Assembly (NCBI GenBank): GCA_017828975.1
Contig: JAGAJN010000031.1
Span: 1 to 64,000 of the forward strand
Source: Oscillospiraceae bacterium
Lineage (GTDB): Bacteria; Bacillota; Clostridia; Oscillospirales; Ruminococcaceae
Length of the DNA stretch: 64,000 nt
Direction of reading: 5' to 3'
Under the pieces are notes generated by a model that saw nothing but the letters and a program-made list of their open reading frames with translations, had not been told where the DNA came from and did not search any database. Position 1 is the first letter of the stretch; each line of letters starts with the position of its first letter. Position numbers and translations under genes: made by a program. Shown piece after piece: positions 25,906-29,246 of the stretch.

Positions 25906-25934
25906 TTGACAAATGTATACTTGTGTGGTATACT
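25906..25934 (+). promoter_or_regulatory. Second pfl promoter with GTATAC repeats
   Basis: TTGACA (25906-25911), 17 bases, TATACT (25929-25934). The self-complementary hexamer GTATAC occurs at 25915-25920 in the spacer and again at 25928-25933 across the -10, 13 bases apart, giving a dyad on one helix face that could be an operator. The resulting leader is about 155 bases, GC-rich, with repeated CCGGAC blocks (25993, 26022). Confidence 0.75.
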
Positions 25935-26095: not shown

Positions 26096-28195
26096 ATGAC
26101 AAAGGAATTTTTTGAACAGTGGGAGGGCTTCACACCCGGTAAGTGGAGCGACGGCGAGATCAATGTAAGAGATTTCATTCAGAGAAACTACACTCCCTAT
26201 GACGGAGATGAGAGCTTCCTCGCAGATCCTACCGACGCTACCAAGAAGCTGTGGGATGAAGTTATGGAGCTCGCTAAGAAGGAAAGAGAAGCAGGCGGCG
26301 TTCTGGATATGGACACCAAGGTCGTTTCCTCTCTCGTTTCTCACGGCGCAGGCTACATAGACCAGCCCCTTGAAAAGATTGTCGGACTTTAGACAGATAA
26401 GCCCTTTAAGAGAGCTTTAATGCCCTACGGCGGTCTGAGAATGGCTGAAAAGGCTTGCTCCGACAACGGATATAAGGTTGACCCCGAGATCAGCCACATT
26501 TTCACAGAATACAGAAAGACACATAACGCAGGCGTTTTTGATTGCTACACCCCCGAAATGAGAGCTTGCAGAACAAATCACATCATCACAGGTCTTCCCG
26601 ACGCTTACGGTCGTGGACGTATTATCGGCGACTACAGAAGAGTTGCTCTTTACGGCGTTGACAAGCTTATTGAAGACAAGGAAGATCAAAAGGCATTCTA
26701 TACTTCTCCTATGACTGAGGAGAAGATCCGTGCAAGAGAAGAGATCGCCGAGCAGATCAGAGCTCTCCAGAACCTGAAGAAGATGGCTGAGATCTACGGC
26801 TGCGACATCTCCAAGCCCGCTACAACCGCTAAGGAAGCAGTTCAGGCTGTTTATTTCGGATATCTGGGTGCTGTTAAGGACCAGAACGGTGCTGCTATGT
26901 CCCTGGGACGTACCTCCACATTTCTTGACATCTACTTTGAGAGAGATTTCAAGCTGGGCAGACTGACCGAAGTTGAAGCTCAGGAGATCATCGACCACTT
27001 CGTTATGAAGCTCCGTCTTGTTCGTTTCGCAAGAACTCCCGAATATAACGCACTGTTCTCCGGTGACCCTCAGTGGGTAACAGAGTCCCTCGGCGGTATC
27101 GGTATCGACGGCAGACATATGGTAACAAAGAACAGCTTCCGTTACCTGCATACTCTCGAAAACCTCGGCACATCTCCCGAGCCTAACCTGACAGTTCTCT
27201 GGTCTCCCAGACTGCCCGCAGGCTGGAAGAAGTACTGCGCTAAGATCTCCATCATCTCCTCTTCTATCCAGTACGAGAACGATGAGGTCATGAGAGTTAC
27301 TCACGGTGATGACTATGCTATCGCTTGCTGCGTATCCTCTATGAGAGTCGGCAAGGAAATGCAGTTCTTCGGCGCAAGAGCTAACCTGGCTAAGTGCCTG
27401 CTGTACGCTATCAACGGCGGTGTTGATGAGATCAGCGGCGTTCAGGTAGGTGCAAAGTATCGTCCTATCACCTCCGAGTACCTCGATTATAATGAGGTTA
27501 TGGAAAGATACGATGATATGATGACATGGCTTGCAGGAGTTTATGTAAATACTCTGAATATCATTCACTATATGCACGATAAGTACTGCTACGAGAGCCT
27601 CCAGATGGCTCTTCACGACAGAGAGGTCAAGAGATACTTCGCAACAGGTATCGCAGGTCTTTCCGTTGTTGCAGACTCCCTCTCCGCTATCAAGTACGCT
27701 AAGGTCAAGGTCGTTCGTAAGGACATTGAGATCAAGAATAAGAAGGGCGAGGTCGTATCCGTTGCTAAGAACGTTGCAGTTGACTACGTAACAGAGGGCG
27801 ATTTCCCGAAGTACGGCAACAACGACGACAGAGTAGACGAGATCGCAGTTGATATCGTTAAGAGATTCATGGAGAAGGTTCGTCAGCAGCAGTGTTACAG
27901 AAACGGCGTTCCTACTACATCTATCCTTACCATCACTTCCAACGTTGTTTACGGTAAGAATACCGGTTCTACTCCCGACGGACGTAAGCTCGGTGTGCCT
28001 CTGGCTCCCGGTGCTAACCCCATGCACGGACGTGATACTCACGGTGCTTCCTCTTCACTGTCCTCCGTTTCCAAGCTTCCTTTCACAGAGGCTCAGGACG
28101 GTATCTCCAATACCTTCTCCATTATCCCCGATGCACTCGGTAAGGACGACAAGGTATTCATGGGCGATCTGGACATTGAATCCCTCGCTAAGTAA
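26096..28195 (+). CDS. pflB: Pyruvate formate-lyase core subunit (split enzyme; in-frame amber at codon 99)
   Basis: Converts pyruvate and CoA to acetyl-CoA and formate. ATG at 26096 follows GAAAGGAG. Codons 1-98 and 100-699 are both clear [28 protein letters not shown], then [37 protein letters not shown] and [19 protein letters not shown]. The catalytic Cys pair (AIACCVSS) is at codons 411-412, equivalent to 418-419 of the E. coli enzyme. A TAG at 26390-26392 breaks the frame exactly where relatives have Gln. The ORF then ends in TAA after GKDDKVF and SLAK, before the linker and glycyl-radical domain, which is encoded by the next gene. Codon use is the biased, highly-expressed type. No activase gene is nearby. 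Confidence 0.9.
26390..26392 (+). other. In-frame TAG inside the pfl core gene
   Basis: IVGL-[TAG]-TDKPFKRAL aligns with the near-universal IVGLQT of PFL, so one C-to-T change (CAG to TAG) explains it. The reading frame, codon bias and conservation are undisturbed on both sides. Only two other genes in the window end in TAG (45459 and 58154), and both look like true stops. Sequencing error, recent nonsense mutation or readthrough are the options. Restart at ATG 26420 would lack the conserved N-terminus. Confidence 0.9.
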
Positions 28196-28200
28196 AAGCT

Positions 28201-28251
28201 GCGGCTTAGCCGCTTAAACCAATACTTCCTGCGGTCTATGCCGCAGGAAGT
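28201..28251 (+). promoter_or_regulatory. Intercistronic hairpins between the two pfl parts
   Basis: A small stem GCGGC-TTA-GCCGC (28201-28213) is followed by a perfect 11-bp stem ACTTCCTGCGG / CCGCAGGAAGT (28224-28234 with 28241-28251) with a 6-base loop and no T-run. This is the form of an mRNA-stabilising or processing hairpin, not of a terminator. It could set different amounts of core and radical-domain message. Confidence 0.7.
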
Positions 28252-28300
28252 GCAAACAAAGTCCGAAGCAATTCGGCAATTTCAAAAGGAGGATATTATT

Positions 28301-28546
28301 ATGGCAAATGTTAATACACAGCAGGTAGATAATCTGGTTGCTCTGCTCGATGGTTATTCCGCTAAGGGTGGTCATCACCTCAACGTAAACGTGTTCACTA
28401 AGGATACTCTTCTGGACGCTCAGAAACACCCCGAGAACTATCCTCAGCTGACTATCCGTGTTTCCGGTTACGCTGTAAACTTTATAAAGCTGACCAAGGA
28501 ACAGCAGGATGACGTTATCTCCAGAACATTCCACAATGCTCTGTAA
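28301..28546 (+). CDS. Stand-alone glycyl-radical domain of pyruvate formate-lyase
   Basis: 81 aa from ATG 28301, with AAAAGGAGG 7 bases upstream; an upstream ATG at 28238 has no ribosome binding site and would read through the hairpin. It begins with a linker [20 protein letters not shown] that matches the LMDGY...GGQHLNVNV segment of full-length PFL, then [13 protein letters not shown] with the radical Gly at residue 56 (Gly734 in E. coli), and ends [15 protein letters not shown]. coli GrcA (YfiD) is a longer, 127-aa spare part with a different N-terminus that backs up an intact PFL. Here the upstream core lacks this domain, so the small protein should be an obligatory subunit that is activated and, if oxygen-cleaved, cheaply replaced. 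Confidence 0.92.
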
Positions 28547-28549
28547 TTT

Positions 28550-29194
28550 ATGAGTAAGAAACAGTTTATATCATTTCTGTCTGACTCAGTTTTAGCCGGA
28601 CTGATGATCGGTGTCGGGGGAGTGGTAAGCCTCTCCTCCGACAACCGATACATCGGTGCGGTTCTCTTTTCGTTGGGACTTTTGACGATAATTCACTTTA
28701 AGTTCGGACTTTATACGGGTAAGGTGGGAAATATTGCAAGAAACGGTGTGAAGTTTATCCCCGAGGTAGCTGTTACGCTTCTTGGAAACGGCATAGGCAC
28801 CTTCCTTGCGGCAGTTCTTATCCGCCTGACGAGAATTGCGCCCCCTCTTGTGGAAAAGGCTCAGGCAACGGTTCAGACGAAAACTTCGGACAGCATTGTA
28901 AGTATGTTTATTCTCGGAATTTTCTGTGGTATGCTTATGTTCATTGCCGTTGACGGTTACCGCAAATGCAAGGAGAATTCCGATTCGACGGCGGGCTTTA
29001 TGATAGTTGCTTTCCCTGTTATCGTGTTTATAATCAGCGGATTCAACCATTGTATCGCCGATATGTTTTACATATTCCTGGCAGGGGAGTACACTCTTGT
29101 TGCTTTGGGGTATTTTATCACGGTCGTCCTCGGAAATGCCGTGGGCGGTATGCTTATCCCGACATTTAAAAAGGTTTCGGAAAATAAGCTTTGA
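28550..29194 (+). CDS. Short FNT-family formate channel (FocA-like)
   Basis: 214 aa, shorter than the usual 270-285. Six hydrophobic segments; FNT signatures are LMIGVGGVVSLSS near the N-terminus, GLYTGKVGN after the second helix, the pore-helix GFNHCIADMFYI with the conserved His (FocA has EHS here; this protein has NHC), and LGNAVGGMLIP near the end. It starts 3 bases after the radical-domain gene and is followed by a strong terminator, so it is the last gene of the pfl operon. It probably exports formate made by PFL. The N-terminal cytoplasmic helix that gates FocA appears very short. Confidence 0.82.
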   Translation: MSKKQFISFLSDSVLAGLMIGVGGVVSLSSDNRYIGAVLFSLGLLTIIHFKFGLYTGKVGNIARNGVKFIPEVAVTLLGNGIGTFLAAVLIRLTRIAPPLVEKAQATVQTKTSDSIVSMFILGIFCGMLMFIAVDGYRKCKENSDSTAGFMIVAFPVIVFIISGFNHCIADMFYIFLAGEYTLVALGYFITVVLGNAVGGMLIPTFKKVSENKL

Positions 29195-29200
29195 TGAAAC

Positions 29201-29246
29201 AAAAAAACGGATATGCTGATTTGTTTTCAGCATATCCGATTTTTTA
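29201..29246. terminator. Bidirectional terminator
   Basis: CGGATATGCTGA (29208-29219) pairs perfectly with TCAGCATATCCG (29227-29238). An A-run precedes and a T-run follows, so it serves both the pfl operon and the convergent HD gene. Confidence 0.92.

Follow-up and report, generated by a model that had tools for sequence, protein, structure and literature searches.

A pyruvate formate-lyase (PFL) locus divided over two genes was analysed at positions 26096 to 28546 of a stretch of 64,000 nucleotides (nt), called the window below, from an Oscillospiraceae bacterium (GCA_017828975.1, contig JAGAJN010000031.1, positions 1 to 64,000). With a probability of roughly 0.88, judged from sequence comparison, the locus encodes a two-subunit PFL whose core has no glycyl-radical domain and in which GrcA3, a small separate protein, would supply this domain in trans. 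PFL supplies fermentation in many anaerobes, and oxygen destroys its radical; a lineage long keeping this radical on a small separate subunit would provide a natural test of the servicing of a glycyl-radical enzyme by part exchange, and would correct the idea that GrcA3 is an optional spare. The split also comes with an unnamed family of cysteine-motif (Cys-motif) proteins, the newer part of the finding, for which docking or thiol protection is the clear prediction. An original prediction drawn from this DNA had read the locus as a naturally split PFL; this reading is partly supported and the observation behind it partly confirmed, and it did not see an in-frame TAG in the core, the GrcA3 model existing in NCBIfam, the Cys-motif component, or the single clade of split cores with its probable re-fusion.

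The core gene frame (26096..28195; all window features given here lie on the forward strand) begins at ATG 26096, with a Shine-Dalgarno-like sequence upstream, and ends at a TAA (28193-28195) ahead of the radical-domain linker, as had been predicted and as both the frame and the alignment with E. coli PflB agree. The radical domain restarts after a gap of 105 nt, preceded by its own AAAAGGAGG, at ATG 28301, opening the 81-residue (aa) open reading frame (ORF) of grcA3 (28301..28546). In the alignment the core reaches residue 681 of E. coli PflB and the small ORF covers residues 683-757, so the two pieces join with almost no gap. The same Cys-Cys active-site pair and RVSGYAV loop are found as in E. 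coli PflB, the former in the core (C411-C412, in IACCVSS, invariant in alignment A4) and the latter carried by the separate small ORF; unlike E. coli PflB, two genes are involved and the core ends in a short acidic tail, which bears cysteines in many relatives. The small protein retains the PFL-type linker, its radical glycine is residue 56, and it matches PF01228 and the NCBIfam model NF038360 ('autonomous glycyl radical cofactor GrcA3') at 165.8 bits (cut-off 158), making it a member of a family whose name speaks of an autonomous cofactor.

As a small free protein with a PFL radical domain, it also resembles YfiD/GrcA (TIGR04365), which according to the accessible text of PMC8683613 has a disordered N-terminus of about 60 aa and rescues the oxygen-cleaved full-length enzyme. 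Unlike YfiD/GrcA, the small protein lacks the long N-terminus, as claimed earlier, and no full-length enzyme was found beside it: it has 81 aa against 127 in the solved GrcA, and TIGR04365 matches only its residues 20-81, with profile positions 65-126 (the C-terminal half of GrcA) and 94.8 bits against a cut-off of 170.

The original prediction had called for a search for a second full-length pflB or grcA. None was found in the window's own genome (94.67% complete), which has one PFL-like core, no full-length PFL and no other PFL-type radical domain, its three PF01228 matches being GrcA3, the radical-less end of the core and NrdD; GrcA3 is consequently the only PFL radical source found. A single PFL activase is above cut-off (TIGR02493, 304.1 against 231.75 bits, at G000:C11:44732) and is unlinked to the locus. 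Among 61 genomes searched, the own genome and 60 relatives, ten have a split-type core, and further matches in these ten are just 25-33% identical, which identifies them as other glycyl radical enzymes.

The layout recurs well beyond this assembly. The GrcA3 cut-off was passed in 21 of 394 genomes of the order sample, always by an open frame of 81-152 aa (the start of one, L064, being assigned by eye), and all 21 show a truncated core upstream of the short ORF with at most one small ORF in between; the next match in the order, at 150.5 bits, lies in a fused gene (L072). Since the break point is identical across relatives, a sequencing error does not account for the split, and its description as natural holds. 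In the phylum sample the cut-off was exceeded in 2 of 398 genomes, including the window's own. From the named collection, in which at least 80 such loci exist, the best 80 were taken, and every one has GrcA3 as a separate short ORF, with the core in view in 66 and not in 14. Among the genomes holding these 80 loci are Lacrimispora amygdalina (L094), Claveliimonas bilis (L104), Beduini massiliensis (L120), Kineothrix alysoides (L152), Eisenbergiella tayi (L153), Parablautia intestinalis (L164) and several Gastranaerophilales assemblies. A PflA-type radical S-adenosylmethionine motif was detected by pattern match within 1.6 kb past grcA3 in 64 of 85 split loci, four of which are cut by a contig edge, i.e. 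in 64 of 81 uncut ones.

Some other candidates were set aside. In G236, a radical ORF of 79 aa that scores under the GrcA3 cut-off is a fragment at a contig end, and among the matches listed four more lower-scoring ones lie in frames 313-572 aa long. Where core and GrcA3 seem joined in one frame of 790-920 aa, as at some split loci, there is a stop between core and GrcA3 in all those looked at (16, plus G428, G433 and G435).

These counts bear on the possibility that GrcA3 is a dispensable spare part like E. coli YfiD/GrcA, the real enzyme being a full-length PFL elsewhere. Its family name suggests as much, and grcA3 occurs without a nearby core in 14 of the 80 loci. A full-length PFL was found, however, neither in the own genome nor in 49 of the 50 other genomes with GrcA3 that were searched (of the 57 first-listed, from 80), although many of these assemblies are incomplete; they have one PFL core each, except Claveliimonas bilis, which has a full-length PFL in addition. 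A TIGR01255 match is above cut-off in 49 of the 50. Moreover, all 14 genomes with a core-less grcA3 locus also hold a linked one consisting of core, stop and adjacent short radical ORF, one of these cores being cut by a contig end. The spare-part explanation is therefore very improbable, and the genomic setting of GrcA3 argues for a PFL subunit rather than an autonomous cofactor. The second, unlinked copy beside the linked one (L098, L100-L103, L110, L111, L133, L142, L152, L155, L157, L164 and L165, with two on one contig in L101) is compatible with, and no proof of, the earlier idea of a cheap, replaceable oxygen-sensitive part. Near the unlinked grcA3 of L098, L142 and L157, of 12 checked, lies an ORF with an end matching by pattern what we take to be a Crp/Fnr-like protein.

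The history of the split was examined on a tree of 80 cores (LG+G4), in which 43 split and four fused rows form one set with support of 100/98, while the 33 other fused PFLs, E. coli included, fall outside. The four fused cores (L072-L075) nest deep among the split rows, within a set of 31 rows supported at 100/99, and a smaller tree of 41 rows agrees on their placement. A single split followed later by one re-fusion is the simplest reading of this topology. In the order sample the radical domains of L072-L075 are the top-scoring fused ones against GrcA3 (144-150 bits, the next at 135.6), as would be expected if they had been regained from a grcA3; fused genes elsewhere in the phylum score up to 143.5, which tempers this argument. 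The spread of split loci over many families suggests lateral transfer.

Some split-PFL or GrcA3 loci (L127, L136, L142, L157, L159 and L165) stand in assemblies labelled Muribaculaceae or Gastranaerophilales/Melainabacteria and may represent either transfer or mis-binning. Radical-domain-like sequence is encoded in 1539 of 50,697 phage records, two short ones of human-faecal origin being 81-88% identical to GrcA3 and possibly bacterial DNA.

An additional small ORF of 57-90 aa stands between core and grcA3 in 7 of 26 loci of the first set and in 41 of the 66 named loci. Its product, the Cys-motif protein, has the consensus DDLVxMLDxxMxxGxGHxNV...TDCSxxxxACxVPT (alignment A3); scans of examples with Pfam, NCBIfam and PHROGs gave no family at cut-off, and the best match in a profile search of the PDB was unrelated (E 0.092). 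Loci without a linked Cys-motif protein mostly have a Cys pair in the core tail instead, such as CGNGAC..PTLFEGLD, CPSCANIPN, GCCE or CACCEPN. Among the first 89 loci, 46 have the linked protein and none of these a tail, 39 of the 43 without the protein are tailed, and four have neither (the window, the same-genus genome G001, L090 and L122). Fourteen further loci fetched once this rule was stated, standing outside the tree and taken from relatives of genomes counted before, gave 11 with the protein, three with a tail (CGCCEGTC), none with both and none with neither, for a total over 103 loci of 57 with protein, 42 with tail, none with both and four with neither. Three loci (L118, L144 and L162) were dropped before counting as they have no usable core end; an apparent core-Cys-protein fusion in L118 runs through masked bases, with the core's own end in another frame, and was rejected.

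The window's genome and G001 do carry a Cys-motif protein, unlinked and on another contig (G000:C37:181985-182188 in the former, P0002, E about 1e-15). That of the window's genome bears CKNGAC, and the protein is under purifying selection between the two genomes (nonsynonymous rate dN 0.012, synonymous rate dS 0.27). By profile scan the protein was not found in G441 (L090) and G474 (L122); L090 and L093 differ in their tails though the compared parts of their cores are 98.9% alike. Near-full-model matches to the Cys-motif profile occurred in four of 388 order genomes (G123, G020, G226 and the window's own), all of them with a split PFL, while the other 25 matching genomes cover only the first 30-40 model positions, in most cases within GrcA3 or a fused radical domain and in one case (G094) in a 1327-aa frame. 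The unlinked gene of the window's genome (G000:C37:181985-182188, equal to L191:3986-4189) has a strong Shine-Dalgarno sequence, and the ORF ahead of it is presumably deoxycytidylate-deaminase-like.

Several observations weigh against the two-subunit reading or against the parts built on it. The mutual exclusion of protein and tail over the 89 loci reaches a Fisher p of 4.6e-21 when relatedness is ignored; on the tree (86 rows, 84 after reduction of the near-identical pairs L049/L117 and L090/L093), there are three supported independent pairs, all three in the predicted direction, and the sign test is non-significant (p 0.25). The Cys motif accompanies the split state in these sequences, though with only three well-supported independent switches in the tree. 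The 41-row tree left the fused L079, L081 and L083 unresolved among the split rows, whereas the 80-row tree puts them outside. In E. coli, according to the accessible text of PMC8683613, a core cut at residue 696 shows no measurable YfiD binding and is barely activated. Finally, a TAG interrupts the core itself, and the incomplete set of tRNAs called contains no amber suppressor; provided that the base is real, this strain may have a dead enzyme.

This TAG, at 26390-26392, is codon 99 of the core, a position occupied by glutamine in 28 of 28 relatives (A4), and had gone unnoticed in the original prediction, which took the core for a single open frame. It divides the core into a 5' part (26096..26392) with a 98-aa ORF, matching TIGR01255 positions 1-89, and the remaining frame (26393..28195), which holds a 591-aa ORF with the Cys-Cys pair and runs to the TAA without a radical domain; scored apart, the two pieces reach 109 and 925.7 bits against a curated TIGR01255 cut-off of 994.2. 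Decoding of the TAG as an amino acid was considered and not retained: no CUA anticodon was called among the tRNA genes (ARAGORN at the 41 tRNA places given by Rfam, of which a weak one yielded no call), in a set that is incomplete, Trp, Asn and Ile tRNA also being uncalled. TAG closes two of the 51 open frames of at least 250 codons counted on both strands of the window, whether or not they are genes; recoding is neither proven nor excluded by this. Likewise, the stop is not a recurrent one, since the fused pfl of another family member (L085) also has one in-frame TAG, but elsewhere in the gene. With an intact core copy in G001 and no amber suppressor found, the core is interrupted in this assembly.

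The locus could accordingly be a pseudogene decaying in this strain, in which the TAG ended PFL and the remainder is drifting. Loss of a glutamine kept in all 28 relatives and the absence of a CUA tRNA among those called are in its favour. The rest of the 2097-nt core frame, on the other hand, contains no further stop, and the comparison with G001 gives a dN/dS of about 0.04 for the core (0.009/0.20) and a dN of 0 for GrcA3, so that, with the copy in G001 intact, any loss must be of very recent date, unless the base is an error of the assembly. Ongoing decay is therefore unlikely, and the TAG is read either as an error of the assembly or as a nonsense change of very recent date. The split itself predates the TAG by a long way.

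In the proposed mechanism for the two-subunit PFL, the core would keep the substrate barrel and the Cys-Cys active site, having lost the C-terminal radical domain, and PFL activase would install the radical on Gly56 of GrcA3 while GrcA3 sits in the core. Pyruvate and coenzyme A would then be converted to acetyl-CoA and formate, with formate possibly leaving through the adjacent FocA-like channel, and a damaged GrcA3 could in principle be replaced, sparing the core of about 700 residues. The Cys-motif protein, unlinked here, would most likely help the core to accept or protect the separate radical subunit. In the E. coli system as described in PMC8683613, as far as its accessible text goes, a PFL without a radical of its own can have it carried by YfiD, which binds oxygen-cleaved PFL with a dissociation constant of 14 uM, residues 696-733 of PFL being proposed as the YfiD recognition element. 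As the 696 core is barely activated there and the natural split removes still more, something must replace this element. The natural candidate is the Cys-motif protein, a copy in part of the linker and strand with which the element opens.

The Cys-motif component may accordingly be a docking or placeholder piece whose N-terminus copies the linker and strand LLDGY..GGHHLNV, a possibility we hold tentatively and at somewhat under even odds. This segment begins the stretch that is retained on cleaved E. coli PFL and needed for YfiD recruitment. The first 30 or so residues of the Cys-motif protein are homologous to the GrcA3 linker (hhalign, 31 columns, probability 95.3, E 2.3e-8), Cys-motif proteins match NF038360 from positions 2-33, the lowest E being 2.9e-5, and the Cys-motif profile in turn matches the short ORF in the place of GrcA3 over its first 30 or so positions in 28 of 28 genomes scanned (E 2e-7 to 6e-4). 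Tail-type loci, however, retain the Cys part only, so the linker-like half is not essential everywhere.

A thiol redox arm is a more doubtful explanation, in which the component would act like the C-terminal CxxxxC of class I ribonucleotide reductase (RNR) alpha and pass electrons from thioredoxin or glutaredoxin to the vicinal cysteines of the core, more exposed with the radical subunit off. RNR C-terminal Cys pairs hand electrons to the active site, according to the accessible text of PMC5704485. The core tails DCGNGAC, DCSNGAC and DCESC and the own CKNGAC resemble the acidic C-terminal tail of E. coli NrdA with its Cys pair (..GCESGACKI); this likeness is a short-motif analogy and no homology. 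The spacing of the cysteines varies (CxxC, CxxxxC, CC), which a flexible thiol pair fits better than a rigid metal site, and the four re-fused genes have no Cys stretch ahead of their radical domain. RNR needs reductant at every turnover, whereas PFL needs none for catalysis, and a frequent P[TN]LFEGLD-like end hints at docking too. Docking and thiol-arm roles may both apply together. One could imagine, as a reading less likely than not, a three-part PFL made of a core, an interchangeable radical subunit and a dedicated Cys-motif loader, which would copy the PFL linker strand and hold the empty core or keep it reduced until GrcA3 docks. Several lineages would later have reduced the loader to a Cys tail on the core, and re-fusion would have brought its loss. 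If true, the system would be one of subunit exchange and oxygen recovery and not a static split.

Besides the NCBIfam model, radical-less PFL cores are already present in the PDB, at least one of them of the split type. Entries 38la_A and 38lb_A, both 'Formate acetyltransferase' (687 and 739 aa), appear to be two different PFL cores without recognisable radical domain, GrcA3 queries missing both; 38la ends at LGKE, while split cores share up to 76% identity with the compared part of 38lb, which continues with a split-type tail. Others are therefore probably at work on such enzymes. Among the papers listed, from a collection with few subscription journals and no bioRxiv preprints, none describes a split PFL or GrcA3, and the accessible texts of PMC11528403, PMC13252398 and PMC7478625 do not mention a split PFL.

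The spacer between core and grcA3 (28196-28300) folds at -36.2 kcal/mol (z -4.45) and contains a stem-loop of 11 perfect pairs (28224..28251) without a U run on this strand. A similar stem is present in the G001 spacer, and the sister loci L088, L090, L093 and L096 have strong hairpins of differing sequence (computed without shuffles); an Rfam search of the window gave no matches. As no U run follows it, the hairpin might be an mRNA processing or protection element through which core and GrcA3 are made in unequal amounts. A sigma-70-like promoter (25906..25934; TTGACA, 17 nt, TATACT) lies about 160 nt ahead of the core, a consensus match only, with 11 of 12 consensus positions matched in a region holding 10 such sites against 4.5 expected. 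Three nt past the grcA3 stop begins a gene for a FocA-like formate/nitrite transporter (28550..29194; PF01226, E 3e-28), and the core-grcA3-focA unit is followed by an intrinsic-terminator-like site (29208..29238) consisting of a 12-pair stem and then ATTTTTTATC.

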